This document shows, piece after piece, positions 14,598 to 49,577 of a stretch of DNA of 64,000 nucleotides. This DNA is from an uncultured Acetobacteraceae bacterium (GTDB lineage: Bacteria; Pseudomonadota; Alphaproteobacteria; Acetobacterales; Acetobacteraceae). Where the stretch lies: positions 62,001-126,000 of the forward strand of contig CAIVPZ010000057.1 of NCBI GenBank assembly GCA_903907955.1. The letters are read 5' to 3'. Each line of letters begins with the position of its first letter. The first letter of the stretch is position 1. The notes under the pieces are model-generated. The model saw nothing but the letters and a program-made list of their open reading frames with translations, was not told the DNA's origin and made no database searches. A program made the position numbers and the translations under genes.

Positions 14598-15836
14598 ATG
14601 CTCCAGAAGGAAAACTCCAGGTCCCGGCCGCGCGGCATGCAGGGGCGCCGAAGCGTTATCAGCATCGCCGCCGGCGCCGGCGTCGCGGCTGTGCTGGCGG
14701 GATGTGCAATCCCCGAGCGCGGGCCGGCGGTGCCGATGGGGCGTACCACCCAGGCCAGCGTGCTGGGCGTACCGAACGAGCGTTTCTTTCCATTCAGCAG
14801 CCCGGCGCTGCTCCAGGACGAACTCCAGGCGGCCCTGGTCCGCAACCGCCGGGTGCACGGCCTGCCAGCGGATGCGCCGCTGCCCCAGATGCAGTTGCTG
14901 GCGGTGTCCGGCGGCGGCGAGGACGGCGCGTTCGGCGCCGGCCTGCTGTGCGGCTGGTCTGATCATGGCACCCGGCCGGTGTTCGATGTGGTGACCGGCG
15001 TCAGCACCGGTGCGCTTACCGCCCCCTTCGCCTATCTCGGGTCCGGCGCCGATGCGCAACTGCGCAGCGTCTACACCGACATCGGCCGGTCCGAGGTGCT
15101 GGTCCGGCGCGCCATCACCGCTGCCTTGTTCAACGACGCGCTGAGCGACAACGCGCCGCTGTTCAGGACCATCTCCCGCTTTCTGAACGATGAGATTCTG
15201 ACGGGTATCGCCCGCGGTTATGCCGATGGGCGCCTGCTGCTGATAGGCACCACCGACCTGGACGCCCAGCAGCCGGTGATCTGGAACCTGGGCGCGATCG
15301 CCAGCAGCGGGCATCCCCGCGCATTGGACACCATCCGCCGCGTCCTGCTCGCCTCCTCCGCCATCCCGGGCGCATTCCCGCCCACCATGTTCGATGTGAC
15401 CCTGGACGGGGTGGCGTATCAGGAAATGCATGTGGACGGCGGTGCCTTCGCGCAGGCGTTCCTCTACCCCCCCTCGCTGACCGCGCCGCGGCGTGCGGCC
15501 ATGCGGCGCGGCGCCATGGTGCAGCCGGCAGTTGCCTATGTCATCCGCAACGGCCGGCTCGACCCCGAATGGTCAATGGTGCGGCGCAGTACTTTGAGCA
15601 TCGCCGGCCGTGCCATCTCCACCATGATCGCCTCGAGCGGCTACAACGATGTTGTTCGCATGTACAACACCACCCGTAACGACGGCATCGGCTTTAACCT
15701 GGCCTTTATCAGCAGCGACTTCACCAAGGTGTTGCCAGAACCGTTCGACCAGGACTATATGCGCGCCCTGTTCGACTACGGCTACCAGCAGGCCCGTCAT
15801 GGCTATGATTGGGTAAAGACGCCACCCAATCACTAG
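14598..15836 (+). CDS. patatin-like phospholipase family lipoprotein
   Basis: A 412-residue protein with a basic N-terminus, a hydrophobic stretch and a lipobox (AVLAGC, Cys near residue 36), so probably a lipoprotein facing the periplasm. The patatin fold signatures are present: a GGGEDGAFGAG oxyanion loop near 105, the nucleophile elbow GVSTG near 134, and the catalytic Asp in VDGGAFAQ. It probably hydrolyses phospholipid or other acyl esters by a Ser-Asp dyad. The TAG stop codon is also the first three bases of an R1 repeat. Confidence 0.85.
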   Translation: MLQKENSRSRPRGMQGRRSVISIAAGAGVAAVLAGCAIPERGPAVPMGRTTQASVLGVPNERFFPFSSPALLQDELQAALVRNRRVHGLPADAPLPQMQLLAVSGGGEDGAFGAGLLCGWSDHGTRPVFDVVTGVSTGALTAPFAYLGSGADAQLRSVYTDIGRSEVLVRRAITAALFNDALSDNAPLFRTISRFLNDEILTGIARGYADGRLLLIGTTDLDAQQPVIWNLGAIASSGHPRALDTIRRVLLASSAIPGAFPPTMFDVTLDGVAYQEMHVDGGAFAQAFLYPPSLTAPRRAAMRRGAMVQPAVAYVIRNGRLDPEWSMVRRSTLSIAGRAISTMIASSGYNDVVRMYNTTRNDGIGFNLAFISSDFTKVLPEPFDQDYMRALFDYGYQQARHGYDWVKTPPNH

Positions 15837-15939
15837 AGTGCTTTCAGGCTGACCGTAAACGTTCAGCGCGCTCCAGCTCTTTGTTTTGACGAGCAACTTT
15901 ATCGGCCGGCGGTCGCCGGTCTGGCCGATGTTGCTCTGG
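15834..15939 (+). repeat. R1 palindromic intergenic repeat, copy 1
   Basis: 106 bp, about 94% identical to 49446-49551 in the same orientation. Two hairpins are joined by a linker (ctctttgttttgacgag). Hairpin 1 is a tagagygc...gcgctc arm around gctgaccgt/acg(t)tcagc. Hairpin 2 pairs gagcaac...tcggcc with ggccga...gttgctc. The first three bases are the TAG stop of the patatin gene. From memory, the linker and the tagagc/gctcta ends resemble mosaic intergenic repeats common in Rhizobiales. Confidence 0.85.
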
Positions 15940-15942
15940 CAT

Positions 15943-18591: not shown

Positions 18592-18679
18592 CGATCAGCG
18601 GCCTGATGATCGCGAGGGGGCGGCCCTTCGCCGTTGAGCCGGGCGGCCTGGGACGCAAGGATTTCGGGAGGCGCACCGC

Positions 18680-19423
18680 ATGAAAACCGGGCAGATCCGC
18701 CGAACCGCCAGCGCGATGCCGCTGACCGCGCCGTCCTATCCGGTCGGGCCGCACCGGTTCATCGGCCGCGAGTTTCTCCCCATCACCTACCGCACCGACC
18801 CTGACGCGCTGGAACAGGTGGTGCCGGAGCCGCTGCGCCCCGCCGGAGCGACGGTGCTGTTTCAGTTCGGGCGCATGCCCGACAGCACCGGCTTCGGCCA
18901 CCATGCCGGATCGGCGCAGGTGATCCCGGTGCGGCGCGCCGGCAGCGACGAGGTCGGCGGCTACATCCACGCCATGTATTCCGATGCCCATCAGCCGATC
19001 GCCGGCGGACGCGAGCTGTGGGGGTTCCCGCAGAAGCTGGCGGCGCCGTCGCTCACGGTCGCGCGGGACACGCTGGTGGGCCGGCTGGATTTCGGGCCAG
19101 TGCGCGTCGCCACCGGCACGATGGGGTTCAAGCACCGGGCGCTGGCCGCCGAAGCCGCGCTGGCGGGGCTGCTTCAGCCAGGCTTCCTGCTGAAGATCAT
19201 TCCGCATGTCGATGGCACGCCACGCATCTGCGAACTGGTCAGCATCCGCTTCACCGATCTCGTGTTCAAGGGCGGCTGGACCGGGCCGGCGGCGCTGGCG
19301 CTGCACCCGCACGCGCTGGCGCCGGTTGCCGGCCTGCCGGTGCGCGAGGTGATCGCCGCCGTGCACGTGATCGCCGACCTGACGCTCGAGCTCGGCGAGG
19401 TCGTCCACGACTACCTGGCATGA
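18680..19423 (+). CDS. acetoacetate decarboxylase-like paralogue lacking catalytic residues
   Basis: A 247-residue protein clearly homologous to the next gene and to acetoacetate decarboxylases. Aligned by eye to the Clostridium acetobutylicum enzyme as I remember it, Arg29 is kept (HRFIGREF). Glu61 is Gln ([10 protein letters not shown]). Glu76 is Gly (GHHAGSAQ). The Schiff-base Lys115 is Gln (GFPQKL), while Lys116 is kept. It is therefore unlikely to decarboxylate acetoacetate by the known route, though the fold is complete. A good Shine-Dalgarno site (gggaggcg) precedes ATG 18680. The downstream paralogue begins 14 bp after the stop, or overlaps it by ATGA if ATG 19420 is used. Confidence 0.85.
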
Positions 19424-19437
19424 AGGGGTCCGCCGCC

Positions 19438-20193
19438 ATGAAAGCCGACACCGTCCGCGCCACCGCCTTTGCGATGCCGCTCACCAGCCCGTCCTATCCG
19501 CCGGGTCCGTATCGGTTCGTCGATCGTGAATTCATGATCATCACCTACCGCACCGACCCGGAGGCGCTGCGCCGCGTGGTGCCCGAGCCGCTGGAGATCG
19601 TCGAGCCGCTGGTGAAATACGAGTTCATCCGTATGCCGGACAGCACCGGGTTCGGCGACTATACCGAGTCCGGCCAGGTGATTCCGGTGCGCCTGCCGGA
19701 CGGACATGGCGGCGGCCAGACCGGCGGCTATGTGCATGCGATGTTCCTCGACGATGATCCGCCGATCGCCGGCGGGCGGGAATTGTGGGGCTTTCCCAAG
19801 AAGCTGGCCAACCCGGTGCTGCGGGTGGAGCATGACACGCTGGTCGGCACGCTGGATTTCGGCCCGGTGCGCATCGCCACCGGCACGATGGGCTACAAGC
19901 ACCGCGCGGTGCCGGAACAGACCATCCTGCGCGCGCTGGCGGAGCCGGGCTTCCTGCTGAAGATCATCCCGCACGTGAACGGCACGCCGCGCATTTGCGA
20001 ACTGGTCCGCTACTACCTGCGCGACCTTGTGTTCAAGGGCGGCTGGACCGGTCCCGCCGCGCTGGAACTGCACCCGCATGCGCTGGCGCCGGTCGCCGAC
20101 CTGCCGGTGCTGGAGGTGGTTTCGGCGGTCCACCTGATCGCCGATCTCACGCTCGGTCTCGGCGAGGTGGTGCACGACTATCTGGCCGACTGA
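19438..20193 (+). CDS. adc: acetoacetate decarboxylase
   Basis: A 251-residue protein that retains the known active-site residues: Arg in YRFVDREF, Glu in [11 protein letters not shown], Glu in GDYTESGQ, and the Lys-Lys pair in GFPKKL. It converts acetoacetate to acetone and CO2 through a Schiff base on the first Lys. ATG 19438 has an aagggg site at suitable spacing. ATG 19420 would add six residues and overlap the previous stop. With its catalytically altered neighbour it forms a tandem duplication. Nearby PHA-like and crotonase genes hint at acetoacetyl/acyl-CoA metabolism but do not prove it. Confidence 0.9.
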
Positions 20194-26130: not shown

Positions 26131-26134
26131 CAGC

Positions 26135-26188
26135 AAGGCCAGGGCGCTGCCCTGGACCCGCCAGGGGTCGGTGGACCCCTGGACCCCG
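26135..26188 (+). repeat. R3 repeat, single unit
   Basis: A 54-nt unit almost identical to 22-75. It folds as two nested hairpins (ccagggc/gccctgg and ccaggggtc/gacccctgg). It begins 4 nt after a TAA stop and ends 8 nt before the convergent nifJ stop, a position suited to a bidirectional terminator. Confidence 0.85.
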
Positions 26189-26196
26189 TTCCTTGA

Positions 26197-31624: not shown

Positions 31625-32173
31625 TCAGCGCCAGAAGACGCGGCAGACATGCACGATGCCCGCCTCGGCGTGCAGGTGGGCACCGTGAAAGGCGAGGAGC
31701 ATGGCGAGCGCCGCGGCCACCGGCAGGGCGCGGCGCAGGCCGGGCGGGCGCGGACCGGCCAGCCGGGCCAGCAAGGCCGCGCCGGCAACGCCAAGCAACG
31801 CCCCGGCCAGCACGTCAGCCCCGGTGTGCACCCCGAGCGCCAGCCGCGACCAGCCGATCAACGCCGCGGCAGCCATCGCTCCGGCCACGGCGAGCAGCGA
31901 TGCGCGCCGGCCGCGCGGGGCCAGCAATGCCAGCAGCCCGCCACAGATGACCGCGGCGGCGGCGGTGTGGCCGCTTGGGCTTTTCAGGCCCGGGAGCGGG
32001 TCAGCGGCGCACACGAACAGCTTGGCCAGGAACACGGCCAGCAGGGTGGCGCCAATGCCAGCCAGCCAGGCGGCCGCACCGCGCCGCCATCCCGCCAGCG
32101 CCAGCCCCAGGGCGACCGCAAGCATGAGCGGCAGGATGACCGCCTGATCGGCGAAATCGGTCAGGAAATGCAT
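31625..32173 (-). CDS. PAP2-family membrane phosphatase
   Basis: A 182-residue protein with about five TM helices. The PAP2 motifs are KSPSGHTAAAAV (motif 2, catalytic His) and SRLALGVHTGADVLAG (motif 3). The first motif is reduced to a Lys in KLFVCAADPLPGL. It probably dephosphorylates a lipid phosphate or diphosphate at the membrane. ATG 32173 is chosen because TM1 follows directly. It overlaps the DUF123 gene by 13 bp. The 218 bp upstream of the GltD-like gene and downstream of this one (31407-31624) hold the FNR promoter and no gene. Confidence 0.8.
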   Translation of the reverse strand: MHFLTDFADQAVILPLMLAVALGLALAGWRRGAAAWLAGIGATLLAVFLAKLFVCAADPLPGLKSPSGHTAAAAVICGGLLALLAPRGRRASLLAVAGAMAAAALIGWSRLALGVHTGADVLAGALLGVAGAALLARLAGPRPPGLRRALPVAAALAMLLAFHGAHLHAEAGIVHVCRVFWR

Positions 32174-32634
32174 GGCGCCGGCAATGCCATGCCCGGCCTG
32201 CCGGAAGCGCGGCCCCCTGCCCTGCGGTGCCGGAACGGCAGCTTTGCCCCGGCCGGCCAGTGCAGCAGGTGGCTGGCGCAGGTCCGGCAATCGGTGCTGC
32301 CGAAGCCCGGCAGCGGCACCGGCAGGTGGGCGAGGGCCGCGACCAGCGCGCATTCGTCGCCGCCGGGGATGACCCAGGCGCCTTCGACCGCGCCGGCGGC
32401 GGTGAGGCGGTCGATGTGCCAGTGCGGTTTCTTGTCGGCGCGCATGTGCCGGGCCAGCCGGGCGCGCAGGCCGCCCGGGCCGCGGGCCGAGCCGGCATAG
32501 AGATACCGGCCGGGCGGCAGGATGGTTTCGGGCCGGTGCGGCAGCGCCACGGGCAGTTTCACCGGCAGTGCGATCAGCAGAAGATAGGCACCCGGAACGG
32601 CGGGCGCCGCGGCGGCAGTATGGATGAAGCGCAC
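32161..32634 (-). CDS. DUF123 (GIY-YIG-like) family protein
   Basis: A 157-residue protein from GTG. PGAYLLLIAL, then GRYLYAGSARGPGGLRARLARHMR and KPHWHIDRL, with a Cys pair in STDCRTCASHLLHW, match DUF123, a branch related to GIY-YIG nucleases. The family's activity is not established. An R2 repeat ends 12 nt before the start, and there is no strong ribosome binding site, so expression may depend on the upstream fmdB-like genes. Confidence 0.8.
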   Translation of the reverse strand: MRFIHTAAAAPAVPGAYLLLIALPVKLPVALPHRPETILPPGRYLYAGSARGPGGLRARLARHMRADKKPHWHIDRLTAAGAVEGAWVIPGGDECALVAALAHLPVPLPGFGSTDCRTCASHLLHWPAGAKLPFRHRRAGGRASGRPGMALPAPCIS

Positions 32635-32646
32635 GCGCAGCAGGGT

Positions 32647-32752
32647 GTCAGAGCTTGTGAAGCAATCGAATATGTGGATGAAAGCCCGCTGATATCATTG
32701 AGCGTTCCCGGCTGGACCGGAGCGTCGCGGGCATTCATCCACAAACTCTCAG
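32647..32752 (-). repeat. R2 intercistronic palindromic repeat, copy A
   Basis: 106 bp, about 87% identical to the reverse complement of 46538-46643. Outer arms are ctctgagagtttgtg-like and cacaagctctga. An inner stem pairs gtggatga...gcccgc with gcgggc...tcatccac. Relative to copy B, one stem pair is changed on both sides (G:C here, A:T there). On the minus strand it starts at the TGA stop of the first fmdB-like gene and ends just before the DUF123 start. Confidence 0.85.
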
Positions 32753-32958
32753 GCGCGGCCCGCCGCACACCCGCCGTACTGGGCGCAGCTCGAGCAGGCC
32801 CCCACCGGCTCCGGCACGCGCGGTTCCGGGGCGACGCGCGACAGGAGCTGATCCAGTTCGATGCTGCCGCATTGCGGGCAGATCGGCGCGTCGGCACCGA
32901 TGAGCAGGGCCTCGAATTCGATATCGCAATCGGTGCAGTGATAGCTGAACAGCGGCAT
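32749..32958 (-). CDS. FmdB-family zinc ribbon protein, paralogue 1
   Basis: A 69-residue protein starting MPLFSYHC. Two CxxC pairs (CTDC near residue 8, CPQC near 29) form a zinc ribbon, and a third Cys cluster (CSSCAQYGGC) lies at the C-terminus. FmdB-like proteins are small putative regulators of unknown mechanism. The TGA stop is part of the R2 repeat. It shares its start region with the paralogue 74 bp upstream. Confidence 0.8.
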   Translation of the reverse strand: MPLFSYHCTDCDIEFEALLIGADAPICPQCGSIELDQLLSRVAPEPRVPEPVGACSSCAQYGGCAAGRA

Positions 32959-35522: not shown

Positions 35523-36920
35523 ATGACCGTCCGTACCCGCTTCGCCCCCTCGCCCACCGGCCTGCTGCATATCGGTGGCGCCCGCACCGCGCTGTTCAAC
35601 TACCTGTTCGCCCGCCACCACGGCGGCCAGTTCCTGCTGCGCATCGAAGACACCGACCGCGCGCGCAGCACCCCGGAAGCAACCCAGGTGATCCTGGACG
35701 GGCTGGCCTGGCTCGGCCTGGAGACCGACGAAGCGCCGCTGTTCCAGTCCACCCGGCAGGCCCGCCACGCCGAGGTGGCGCAGCAGATGCTGGCGGCCGG
35801 CCGCGCCTACAAATGCTTCCTCACCGCCGCCGACCTGGAGCAGATGCGCGCGCAGGCCCGCGCGGAGGGCCGCGGCCCGCGCATCGACAGCCCCTGGCGC
35901 GACCGCGACCCGGCCGAAGCGCCGCCCGGCGCGCCGTTCGCCATTCGCCTGCGCGCCCCGCGCGACGGCGAGACGGTGGTGGACGACCTGGTGCAAAGCG
36001 AGGTGCGGGTGGCCAATACCGAACTCGACGACATGATCATCCTGCGCAGCGACGGCTCGCCGACCTACCAGCATGCGGTGGTGGTGGACGACCATGACAT
36101 GGGCATCACCCATGTCATCCGCGGCGATGACCATCTGACCAACACCTTCCGGCAGGTGCAGATTTACGACGCGATGGGATGGGAAAAGCCCCGCTTCGGC
36201 CATGTGTCGCTGATCCACGGGGCCGATGGAACAAAACTGTCCAAGCGGCACGGCGCGCAGTCGATCACCGAGTTCCGCGACATGGGCTATCTGCCCGAGG
36301 CGCTGTGCAACTATCTGCTGCGGCTCGGCTGGGGCCATGGCGACGCCGAGATTCTGTCTCGCGCCGAGGCGGTCGCCCTGTTCGACATCGACGGCGTCGG
36401 CCGGGCGGCGAGCCGGATGGACTATGCCAAGCTGGCGCATGTGAACGGGGTGTGGATTCGCGCCGCCGACGATGACCGGCTGACCCGCGAGGTGCTGGCG
36501 CGACTCGCCCGGCAGCCGGGTCTGGCGCTCGGCACCGCTGCCGCGCACCGCATCCGGGCGCTGCTGCCGCAGTTGAAGGAGCGCGCGAAGACTCTGGTGG
36601 AACTTGCTGATTCTGCAGCTTTCCTGGCGCATCCGCTGCCGCTGGCGATGGAGCCGAAGGCCGCCGCGCTGCTCACCGCGGAGAACCGGCTGATGCTGCG
36701 GGAGGTGGCGGCGGCGCTGGCGGCGAGTGATTTCTCTCCGTCCGGGCTGGATGCGGCGCTGCGCGGCTATGCCGAGCAGACCGGCCGCAAGCTGGGCAGT
36801 GTCGCGCAGCCGCTGCGGGCGGCGCTCACCGGCAGCACGGTCAGCCCCGGCATAGACGCGGTGCTGGTGGCGCTGGGGCGCGATGAGGCGCTAGGCCGCA
36901 TTGCAGCCGCATCCGCTTGA
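35523..36920 (+). CDS. gltX: glutamyl-tRNA synthetase
   Basis: A 465-residue class I synthetase. The HIGH motif is PSPTGLLHIGGARTAL (near residue 10) and the KMSKS motif is TKLSKRHGAQS (near 240). Length fits a bacterial GluRS. Alphaproteobacteria often carry two copies, one of which may act on tRNA-Gln; sequence alone does not tell which this is. ATG 35523 starts at MTVRTRFAPSP, the family N-terminus; ATG 35505 would add six residues. An R3 repeat and tRNA-Leu follow. Confidence 0.95.
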   Translation: MTVRTRFAPSPTGLLHIGGARTALFNYLFARHHGGQFLLRIEDTDRARSTPEATQVILDGLAWLGLETDEAPLFQSTRQARHAEVAQQMLAAGRAYKCFLTAADLEQMRAQARAEGRGPRIDSPWRDRDPAEAPPGAPFAIRLRAPRDGETVVDDLVQSEVRVANTELDDMIILRSDGSPTYQHAVVVDDHDMGITHVIRGDDHLTNTFRQVQIYDAMGWEKPRFGHVSLIHGADGTKLSKRHGAQSITEFRDMGYLPEALCNYLLRLGWGHGDAEILSRAEAVALFDIDGVGRAASRMDYAKLAHVNGVWIRAADDDRLTREVLARLARQPGLALGTAAAHRIRALLPQLKERAKTLVELADSAAFLAHPLPLAMEPKAAALLTAENRLMLREVAAALAASDFSPSGLDAALRGYAEQTGRKLGSVAQPLRAALTGSTVSPGIDAVLVALGRDEALGRIAAASA

Positions 36921-36926
36921 ATGAAT

Positions 36927-36983
36927 GGGGTCCAGGGGGCCACTGCCCCTTGGCGGGTCCAGGGCAGCGCCCTGGCCTTGCTT
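36927..36983 (-). repeat. R3 repeat, single unit, reverse orientation
   Basis: The same unit as at 26135-26188, inverted, and closest to the right arm of the composite at 161-220. It lies 6 nt after the gltX stop and 11 nt before the 3' end of tRNA-Leu on the opposite strand, so it separates two convergent transcripts. Confidence 0.85.
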
Positions 36984-46061: not shown

Positions 46062-46541
46062 ATGTTCGACTTTGCCTGGTCCGAGATCGTGCTGATCGGC
46101 GTGGTGGCCCTGATTGCCATCGGGCCGAAGGACCTGCCGGTCGCCATGAAGGCGGCGAGCGGGATGGTGAAAAAGGCGCGCCGCATGGCCGGCGAATTCC
46201 AGGGCCATGTCGACGAGATGATGCGCGAGGCCAACCTCAACGAGGTGCGCGCCCAGATCAACGAACTCCGCAATTTCGACATCAAGGGCACCATCGTCGA
46301 CGCGGTCGATGCCGACGGCACCATCCGCCAGACCTTCGCCGGCAACCCGCTGGAGCCGACGGGGGCGGCCGGGACCGGATCGATCGACAGCCCGGACACC
46401 GCCGGGGCGGCGCTGCCCGCGCCGGACGCCCCCGCCTTCATCCCGCCCGCCTTCGCCGCGAAGTCCGAGCCGCCACCCGCCTTCATCCCGCCCGGGATGA
46501 CGACGCCGGGGCCGTACTATTCCGGCCGACTCCGCACCTGA
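46062..46541 (+). CDS. tatB: Sec-independent translocase subunit TatB
   Basis: A 159-residue protein. MFDFAWSEIVLIGVVALIAIGP has the conserved TatB Glu at residue 8 and the GPKDLP hinge, then an amphipathic helix (KAASGMVKKARRMAGEFQGH). The tail is Pro-rich with a repeated PAFIPP motif. TatB receives twin-arginine substrates with TatC. No tatA lies between scpB and tatB, where it is normally found. The TGA stop is the start of an R2 repeat. Confidence 0.93.
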   Translation: MFDFAWSEIVLIGVVALIAIGPKDLPVAMKAASGMVKKARRMAGEFQGHVDEMMREANLNEVRAQINELRNFDIKGTIVDAVDADGTIRQTFAGNPLEPTGAAGTGSIDSPDTAGAALPAPDAPAFIPPAFAAKSEPPPAFIPPGMTTPGPYYSGRLRT

Positions 46542-46643
46542 GAGTTTGTGAATGAATGCCCGCAACGCTCCGATCCTGCCGGAAACGCGCCATGATATCG
46601 GCGGGCGTTCATTCACGGGTTCGATTGCTTCACAAACTCTGAC
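46538..46643 (+). repeat. R2 intercistronic palindromic repeat, copy B
   Basis: 106 bp between tatB and tatC. The ends tgagagtttgtgaa and ttcacaaactctga pair, and an inner stem joins gtgaatga...gcccgc-type arms. The A:T pair at one stem position replaces the G:C pair of copy A. The first bases supply the tatB TGA stop. The repeat ends 24 nt before the tatC GTG. Orientation relative to the flanking genes is the same as in copy A. Confidence 0.85.
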
Positions 46644-46667: not shown

Positions 46668-47498
46668 GTGCGCATCCCCTTCCTGACGAAGCGCTCCGAA
46701 CGGCCCGCGCCGGCCCCGCCGCCGCCGCCGGTCGAGGACACCATCGACGACAAGCCGATGCCGCTGCTCGAGCACCTGATCGAGCTGCGCCGCCGGCTGA
46801 TGTGGTCGCTCGGCGGGTTCCTGCTGGCGTTCTTCGTCTGCTACCATTTTTCCGCGGAACTCTATGCCTTCCTCGCCCAGCCGCTGGCGGACGTGGAGGA
46901 GCGGCTCGGCGGCAGCCGGCGGATGATCTACACCTCGCTGACCGAGGGGTTCTTCACCTACCTCAAGGTGGCGATGTTCGGCGGCGCCTTCATCTCGTTC
47001 CCGATCATGGCCACGCAGCTCTGGCTGTTCGTCGCCCCGGGGCTGTACCGCAGCGAGAAGAAGGCGCTGATGCCCTTCCTGGTGGCCTCGCCGGTGCTGT
47101 TCCTGATGGGGGGCGCGCTGGCGTATTATTTCATCTTCCCGATCGCCTGGGGCTTCTTCCTGAGCTTCCAGACGCCGCAGGGCGCGGGCGGGCTGCCGAT
47201 CGAGCTGGAAGCGCGGGTATCGGAATACCTCGATCTGGTGATGAAACTCATCTTCGCCTTCGGGGTGACCTTCCAGTTGCCGGTGGCGCTGAGCCTGCTC
47301 GCCAAGGTGGGCATCGTCACTTCGGCGGGACTGAAGCGCTACCGGCGCTATGCCATCGTGGGGATGTTCATCATCGCCGCCATCCTGGCGCCGCCCGACA
47401 TCATCACCCAGTGCGGCCTGGCGATCCCGCTGATCGGCCTGTACGAGGTTTCCATCATCGCCGCCAAGCTGGTCGAGCCAAAGCCGGTCGAGGTCTGA
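46668..47498 (+). CDS. tatC: Sec-independent translocase subunit TatC
   Basis: A 276-residue protein with six TM helices. [20 protein letters not shown] near residue 35 is the TatC opening with the signal-peptide-binding Glu, and [22 protein letters not shown] is the central conserved block. It starts at GTG 46668 behind a weak cagagacg site and has a Pro-rich N-terminal extension of about 20 residues. It recognises the twin-arginine motif. The serS start lies 2 bp after its stop. Confidence 0.95.
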
Positions 47499-48791: not shown

Positions 48792-49448
48792 ATGCTTGTC
48801 GATCCGGTGACGGATGTGCTGCTGGCGGTGGATGTGCAGCCGGATTTCATGCCGGGCGGCGCCCTGCCGGTGCCCGGCGGCGACCAGGTGGTGCCGGTGA
48901 TCAACCGCCTGCTCGCCGGCCCGTTCCGCCACGCCGTCGCCACCCAGGACTGGCACCCGCCCGGCCACACCTCGTTCGCCAGCGCCCATCCGGGCCGCGC
49001 GCCGTTCGAGCGCATCACGGCGGCGCATGGCCCGCAGACGCTGTGGCCCGACCACTGCGTCCAGGGCACGCCGGGCGCGGCACTGCATGCCGGGCTCGAC
49101 CAGTCGCGGATCGAACTGATCATCCGCAAGGGGTTCCATCCCGCGGTGGACAGCTATTCGGCGTTCCGCGAGAACGACCATGCCACCTCCACCGGCCTCG
49201 ATGCCTGGCTGCGGGGGCGCGGTTTCGTCCGGGTTTTCCTGGCCGGGCTGGCGACCGATTACTGCGTGGCCTGGTCGGCCGAGGACGCGGTACGGGCGGG
49301 GTTCGCGGTGGTTGTGGTGGAAGATGCCTGCCGCGGGATCGGCCTGCCGAGCGGGCCGGATCGCACGACGGTCGATGACGCCCGCGACCATCTGCGCCAC
49401 ACGCATGGGGTGCGGTTCGTGGCCAGCACGGCGTTCGGCGTGGCCTAG
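48792..49448 (+). CDS. pncA: nicotinamidase
   Basis: A 218-residue cysteine hydrolase that deamidates nicotinamide to nicotinate for NAD salvage. The catalytic triad is visible: Asp in LAVDVQPDFMPGG (near residue 14), Lys in LIIRKGFHP, and Cys in LAGLATDYCVAWSA (near 158). A metal-binding set is in the DWHPPGHTSF segment. It starts 16 bp after serS, at a place often held by surE. The TAG stop is the start of an R1 repeat. Confidence 0.93.
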   Translation: MLVDPVTDVLLAVDVQPDFMPGGALPVPGGDQVVPVINRLLAGPFRHAVATQDWHPPGHTSFASAHPGRAPFERITAAHGPQTLWPDHCVQGTPGAALHAGLDQSRIELIIRKGFHPAVDSYSAFRENDHATSTGLDAWLRGRGFVRVFLAGLATDYCVAWSAEDAVRAGFAVVVVEDACRGIGLPSGPDRTTVDDARDHLRHTHGVRFVASTAFGVA

Positions 49449-49551
49449 AGCGCTTTCAGGCTGACCGTAAACGGTCAGCGCGCTCTAGCTCTTTGTTTTG
49501 GCGAGCAACTTTATCGGCCGGCTGTCGCCGGTCTGGCCGATGTTGCTCTAG
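49446..49551 (+). repeat. R1 palindromic intergenic repeat, copy 2
   Basis: The better-paired R1 copy. The outer tagagcgc...gcgctcta stem encloses a perfect 9-bp stem (gctgaccgt/acggtcagc). After a ctctttgttttggc linker a second hairpin pairs gagcaac/gttgctc and tcggcc/ggccga. The TAG at its start is the pncA stop codon. Confidence 0.88.
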
Positions 49552-49577
49552 CCGCGGGGCGGTGACTTCCGGCGCGA

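Follow-up and report, generated by a model that had tools for sequence, protein, structure and literature searches.

The DNA analyzed here (the window; 64 kb, G000:C57:62001-126000) is part of a 4.64-Mb assembly of 176 contigs, labeled G000. It contains two copies of a short palindromic repeat, R2, each located in the gap between two genes (Table 1). Reading of the sequence and blastn placed these copies at 46538-46643 on the forward strand and at 32752-32647 on the reverse strand, with approximately 87% identity, and a repeat scan retrieved them as a 119-nt inverted pair with 86% identity. This confirms the pair as it was described in an earlier, sequence-only reading of the same DNA. Gene calls, made with a home-made codon-based caller, also bear out that each copy starts at the stop codon of the gene upstream and runs in the direction of that gene. 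Among the four neighboring genes named in that reading, Pfam identified TatC (PF00902), a Zn_ribbon_8 (FmdB-like) protein, and a DUF123 protein, whereas the gene given as tatB encodes 159 amino acids with no Pfam match and carries this name by position only.

Table 1. Coordinates of the two R2 copies, their parts, and the adjoining genes in the window
Feature	Position	Strand	Basis
Left CTGA of copy 1, whose TGA (46539-46541) terminates the gene named tatB by position	46538..46541	+	Empty sites with one CTGA in G004 and G002; G003 by eye
R2 copy 1, insert of 101 bp that ends with the right CTGA	46542..46642	+	blastn, empty-site comparison
R2 copy 1, 5' arm, possible pairing partner of the inner and the outer 3' arm	46542..46563	+	Folding, covariation
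R2 copy 1, inner 3' arm (inner stem of the family consensus, 22 bp)	46601..46622	+	Covariation
R2 copy 1, outer 3' arm (11-bp outer stem, right terminal inverted repeat)	46629..46639	+	Covariation
R2 copy 1, right CTGA	46639..46642	+	Sequence, empty-site comparison
R2 copy 2, CTGA to CTGA; the FmdB-like gene terminates at its TGA (32751-32749)	32648..32752	-	Site empty in G004
Gene before tatC, named tatB by position (no Pfam match)	46062..46541	+	Gene calls, Pfam
tatC	46668..47498	+	Gene calls, Pfam
FmdB-like zinc-ribbon gene	32749..32958	-	Gene calls, Pfam
DUF123 gene	32161..32634	-	Gene calls, Pfam

Other repeats occur in the window. An inverted repeat at 80-153 (I8) has arms of 34 nt that are 97% complementary and separated by a 6-nt gap. 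Another dispersed, G+C-rich repeat, 90 to 92% identical, is found at 19-83, 26132-26196, and 36920-36982 (D17, I2, I3), and repeats at 18679-20007 (D2, D3; 71 to 75% identical) resemble a tandem gene duplication.

The R2 family and its empty sites

The R2 unit consists of CTGA, 97 nt, and a second CTGA, with a length of about 101 bp. A 23-base R2 pattern with up to three mismatches retrieved 115 matches in G000 (62 forward and 53 reverse, some of them being the inner 3' arm of copies already counted), against 0 and 0 for the reversed-pattern control. Searches by blastn gave at least 41 near-full-length copies, a lower bound because 40 of 134 candidates were scored. Together these counts place the repetition of R2 far above chance. 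Loci were fetched only from the pattern matches listed, and the 84 fetched loci contain at least 89 physical copies, derived from 92 rows by merging two symmetric elements that had been read on both strands and removing one row that overlaps another copy. The collection filter allowed at most one mismatch in the left CTGA and five in the arm; it misses copies that lack the left end, which may raise the share of old copies located at stops and favor those with a TGA maintained by selection.

Among the 79 full-length copies of G000, CTGA is present at the left end in 74 and at the right end in 66, and tandem copies have a common CTGA(G). Two subfamilies are found in this genome, GAGTTTGTGAATGAATGCCCGC and GAGTTTGAAAAAGAATGCCCGC, the second of which is altered on both sides of the stem. 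No reading frame is open in all 79 copies. With regard to a conserved peptide encoded by R2, the antisense frame that is open most often is so in 56 of 79 copies, and its sense counterpart in 30.

Several derivatives have unusual architectures. Symmetric elements with inverted ends are located at L046:6009-6096 and L032:310-397, and in L046 two convergent genes terminate on the two ends of the derivative. The remnant CTGAGAGTTTGTGAGGCTCTGA at L118:1500-1521 fuses the left and right ends of R2 and is perhaps the footprint of a deletion or excision. At L039:2051-3369, a second tandem copy with only a left end enters a called gene with nucleotidyltransferase and HAD domains, the predicted start of which lies inside the R2 arm.

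In a search of 100 genomes, with at most eight candidates scored per genome, R2 matches at an E value of ≤0.001 were retrieved from seven, G000 included. Outside G000, near-full-length matches occur only in G004, from the same genus, and G041, from the same family, and the other four genomes contain short matches. Exact-pattern matches were found in the metagenome-assembled genomes (MAGs) ZJ1.bin38, FK3.bin97, SKS5.bin64, and G2_14 and at 20 loci of Falsiroseomonas selenitidurans, an isolate of the Acetobacterales. Collections of plasmids, phages, and viral contigs gave no R2 match at the sensitivity used.

Empty orthologous sites were compared for two insertions, those of the window. At the tatB-tatC site, the alignment with G004 gives two flank matches that overlap by exactly 4 bp, CTGA, and the same holds for G002; in both genomes the stop is formed by one CTGA followed by C. 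A single CTGA is also seen by eye in G003, the matches of G005 and G001 stop short of the junction, and G006 has no match. The site between the FmdB-like and DUF123 genes of G004 presents a single CTGA at the stop and no R2. A single CTGA in the empty sites implies an inserted unit of 101 bp with CTGA at both ends. The second CTGA may be a target duplication or may be carried by the element, two origins that cannot be told apart. These comparisons indicate that R2 is mobile, although non-autonomous, and enters CTGA sites in a manner that keeps the upstream stop intact. Insertion would take place in a single fixed orientation and leave CTGA at both ends, as seen at the two sites of the window.

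Placement at stop codons and orientation

In 65 of the 89 copies in G000, the same-strand gene upstream terminates on the left TGA of R2 (one of the 65 comes from a doubtful row in L059). As a background, taken from the 64-kb window only and with R2 masked, 17 of 63 CTGA sites that are non-coding or stops serve as stops (Fisher p about 3e-8). Exact placement on a stop was also observed for 19 of 26 copies in other genomes and for 13 of 16 left-end variants. R2 is in excess at gene 3' ends, in the sense orientation. Random read-through of genes into the element was rejected, since 66 of the 67 rows in which a same-strand upstream gene ends at or inside R2 end on the left TGA.

Two sources of this excess were weighed. 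CTGA is the largest class of stop-codon context in the window (19 of 56 genes). Within gene 3' ends, R2 rows divide between the stop and the next 30 nt as 66:5, a ratio that resembles those of three CTGA backgrounds (17:4, 59:8, and 41:5), which argues that the exact coincidence with the stop comes mainly from the target motif. As C-TGA outnumbers every other stop context here and insertion at such a site would alter neither the protein nor its stop, surviving copies would be expected to gather on UGA stops, where they read in the direction of the upstream gene. Alternatively, insertion could be actively aimed at gene ends or translation stops, for example through single strands exposed by transcription or replication, and not sorted later by selection. 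The size of the stop excess and the like trend in other genomes agree with such targeting, but the background-like division between the stop and the next 30 nt counts against it, and the share of stops would likewise rise if copies in promoters and coding regions were sieved out; we regard active targeting as unlikely. Purifying selection alone is one possible source of the excess.

The orientation of R2 had been described as fixed with respect to the genes on both sides. This stands relative to the upstream gene, but not for the downstream gene: among 66 stop-placed rows, 45 have a co-directional and 21 an oppositely directed gene downstream, which is the baseline of the window genes (43:12; p=0.31).

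A second repeat family of the window, D8, is unrelated to R2 and offers a comparison. Its copies at 15833-15940 and 49445-49552 present CTAG at both ends and two hairpins, and G000 contains 42 matches, partial ones included, many of which are 95 to 100% identical. At up to two mismatches, 28 distinct copies were counted (L155 and L164 being one copy), and matches with five or six mismatches were excluded as chance or as the other side of the palindrome. D8 lies at TAG stops in 20 of these 28 copies, 10 in the sense orientation through the left end and 12 through the right end for a gene on the opposite strand, with two copies in both counts. A palindromic target such as CTAG leaves the orientation free, whereas an asymmetric target such as CTGA fixes it. 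The fixed direction of R2 therefore follows from the asymmetry of its target, and selection on an RNA is not needed to explain it. The direction reflects the insertion sites that are possible and is not proof of a working RNA switch.

Fold and covariation

Folding of the sense strand of the two window copies gave -40.8 and -42.2 kcal/mol (z values of -3.45 and -4.36 against dinucleotide shuffles), and folding of the antisense strand gave -37.9 and -40.1 kcal/mol (z values of -2.34 and -3.34). On the sense strand, the 5' arm can pair with two alternative 3' arms, inner and outer. The predicted RNA energies of the alternative folds are close, at -39.8 versus -41.5 kcal/mol for type 1 and -34.7 versus -32.5 kcal/mol for type 2. 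The exchange of an A:T for a G:C pair between the window copies, reported previously from the sequence, is real: the stem reads GTGAATGAA/TTCATTCAC in the copy at 46538 and GTGGATGAA/TTCATCCAC in the copy at 32752.

Covariation was analyzed in an alignment (A3) of 103 copies, 100 of them distinct, from 105 references (79 from G000 and 26 from other genomes); L059:4438-4543 and L088 were omitted, and the 105 do not include L114. Kinship among R2 copies inflates the shuffle control used for both stems. In the inner stem (22 bp), 93.4% of the cells are paired, 10 pairs have two-sided changes, and 78 two-sided cells compare with 23.1 in shuffles (0 of 500). In the 11-bp outer stem, 90.3% of the cells are paired, and 40 two-sided cells compare with 16.9 in shuffles (0 of 500); its five pairs with two-sided changes were matched by 45 of 500 shuffles. 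Controls in which the arms were slid are no lower in the number of pairs with two-sided changes (8 to 12 for the inner stem and 4 to 7 for the outer stem), but the covariation score exceeds that of the slid versions (0.171 versus at most 0.063 and 0.172 versus at most 0.097), and the paired cells also stand out. RNAalifold on all 103 rows retrieved only a six-pair helix of -0.4 kcal/mol, which counts against a single consensus fold and which we put down to the mixing of two stem sequences and two partners; the conclusions on pairing are drawn from the counts for the two named stems. With consensus-wobble columns excluded and related copies treated as independent, G.U exceeds A.C by 64:29 in the inner stem and 66:25 in the outer stem, which points to the sense strand as the one that folds. 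The arms, the ends, and the right subterminal GTTCGATTG hold most of the conservation, and the loop is mostly variable, a few columns excepted.

The covariation is real, and in this respect the earlier proposal of a fold maintained by compensatory changes holds, with a bias toward the sense strand. It does not extend to the conclusion that the folded molecule is RNA, as a single-stranded DNA would give the same covariation and the two are not separable by it. The proposed role in intercistronic RNA control is not supported, because the start and direction of the element follow from the CTGA target and co-directional genes are not enriched downstream. A functional RNA in the 3' untranslated region (3'-UTR), forming a long hairpin or a three-way junction past the stop, could stabilize or process the mRNA or modulate the downstream cistron. 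It would be in line with the sense-strand fold, the covariation of both alternative stems and their near-equal predicted energies, the preference for G.U over A.C, and the enrichment at gene 3' ends. Place and orientation are nevertheless explained by the target, D8 lies at stops with no orientation bias, and the loop is mostly variable. Furthermore, Rfam gave no match to R2 at the gathering score, the window yielding only two tRNAs. Single-stranded DNA also predicts equal covariation. An RNA function of R2 is unsupported, and we consider this explanation improbable. An intrinsic terminator was rejected on reading the sequence, as the inner stem is followed by GATTGCTT and by no run of T.

The evidence from empty sites, placement, and fold is best explained by R2 being a non-autonomous, palindromic mobile DNA of the MITE or REP-like kind that inserts at CTGA in one orientation and piles up on UGA stops, a reading to which we assign a probability of roughly 0.8. 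The fold would then be kept because a transposition machinery, most likely acting on one DNA strand, recognizes the paired ends together with GTTCGATTG. A right subterminal GTTCGATTG that is conserved across species, next to a mostly variable loop, is as expected for an end recognized by a protein. Any effect of R2 on the mRNA would come second.

Candidate mobilizers and related repeats

Exact end patterns revealed no autonomous element with R2 ends in G000 or in seven other genomes, a search that diverged ends or unassembled parts would escape. In G000, the end patterns have 4 + 4 matches outside the R2 body, none retained as the ends of a parent insertion sequence (IS): L115 and L119 lie inside known R2 copies, L116 to L118 are left-end variants or remnants, and L120 to L122 are lone right-end-like matches. 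The left-end pattern occurs at 16 loci in three of the seven other genomes, and we interpret these loci as variants of R2 or remnants of its left end; L174, L177, and L178 have no recognizable part of R2 besides the left end and may be chance matches. Pfam identified no transposase family in 18 genes, eight of them beside seven left-only rows of G000 and 10 beside 10 of the 16 loci elsewhere (two of these 10 have no family).

The strict orientation of R2 leads us to favor a strand-specific enzyme, although neither of the two types considered is shown. A possible mobilizer that we put forward tentatively is a Y1 (HUH) transposase, either of the IS200/IS605 or of the RAYT type. Such an enzyme joins single-stranded ends on the 3' side of a tetranucleotide and would account for an orientation fixed relative to the asymmetric CTGA, for insertion 3' of it, and for the sense-strand hairpin, and RAYT genes are present in G000 (three above the cut-off and one fragment), G004, and G101. 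The three RAYT loci of G000 (L133, L136, and L138), however, lack the R2 left end at up to two mismatches and were rejected as the source of the R2 mobilizer; right-end-like 10-mers with two mismatches occur in these loci, with no left end. The RAYT loci of G004 and G101 gave no R2 left end at the same threshold except for one 11-mer with two mismatches in G101, about 1 kb away. L136 is bordered by a REP of its own, GGTGGGCTTCAGCCCACC, that differs from R2. Models for Y1 and RAYT had no match in five of seven other R2-bearing genomes, several of which are MAGs, and the sensitivity of PF01797 is low, with one of the three G000 RAYTs found. The RAYT gene of L085/L136 (G000:C122; NF047646, E value of 2.4e-59) is flanked by GTAGGGTGGGCTTCAGCCCACC repeats and constitutes a separate REP system.

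Alternatively, R2 could be a MITE moved by a DDE transposase, for instance one of the IS5/IS1031 kind, that makes a specific duplication (TGA as TNA, or CTGA). The target duplication of IS1031 is TNA, which TGA fits, and R2 has an 11-bp terminal inverted repeat, GAGTTTGTGAA/TTCACAAGCTC, with flanking repeats. A TNA target should permit both TGA and TCA, yet the left end is TGA in 76 of the 79 full-length G000 copies and TCA or CTCA in 0 of 79, and no partner IS was found with the end patterns or among the 18 genes scanned; a mobilizer of this type seems doubtful.

Like MITEs, R2 is short and dispersed, has no transposase gene, carries terminal inverted repeats, and has an end repeat that is single in the empty site. 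ERIC is also grouped with the bacterial MITE-like repeats. Those covered by the review of Delihas (PMC2229807), namely, RUP, Correia/NEMIS, RPE, CIR, and YPAL, are about 100 to 170 bp long, with target repeats at the ends in many, and R2 resembles them as a non-autonomous element with inverted repeats and a predicted stem-loop RNA. In contrast to the TA ends that this review gives for most of them, R2 has CTGA, a strict orientation, and a location mostly on stop codons.

REPs are found near the 3' ends of open reading frames, and the termini of GTAG REPs often supply the TAG stop to flanking open reading frames (Di Nocera et al. 2013, PMC3733652), so that the overlap of stops by small palindromes has a precedent. 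Transcription is presumed for many GTAG-tagged REPs (Di Nocera et al. 2013, PMC3733652; Nunvar et al. 2010, PMC2817692). R2 shares with GTAG REPs and RAYT REPtrons, as described in these two papers, the dispersal of palindromes at gene 3' ends. GTAG REPs are given there as 20 to 40 bp long with a GTAG tag at one end, whereas R2 spans about 101 bp with CTGA at both ends and two alternative 3' arms; unlike in RAYT REPtrons, the ends of R2 were found on no RAYT locus examined, and no GTAG lies at the foot of its hairpin. The CGTC-tagged REPs, mostly alphaproteobacterial, are in the account of PMC3733652 also palindromic repeats with no associated transposase gene, but the R2 terminus lacks CGTC, and R2 is longer and has both ends set by CTGA. 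R2 thus belongs to the bacterial REP/MITE kind and differs from REPs in its size, its tag, its double 3' arm, and the absence of a RAYT. Among the listed papers of the open literature, judged by titles and abstract openings, no like element of Acetobacteraceae and no stop-targeting family was seen.

A broader proposal, which we think unlikely, is that R2 and D8 both belong, as separate families, to a wider class of elements of approximately 101 to 103 bp, in which a strand-specific enzyme would rebuild a stop-containing target tetranucleotide and make insertion scarless at gene ends; the R2 transcript would then be a bistable 3'-UTR structure adopted by some genes. If stop targeting were active, R2 would offer a natural route for the insertion of DNA at gene ends with the protein unchanged. 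As a mobile element, R2 is a clean case of mimicry of an orientation-selected RNA element, brought about simply by a target that overlaps the stop codon, and it cautions that covariation and fixed orientation alone do not prove RNA function.
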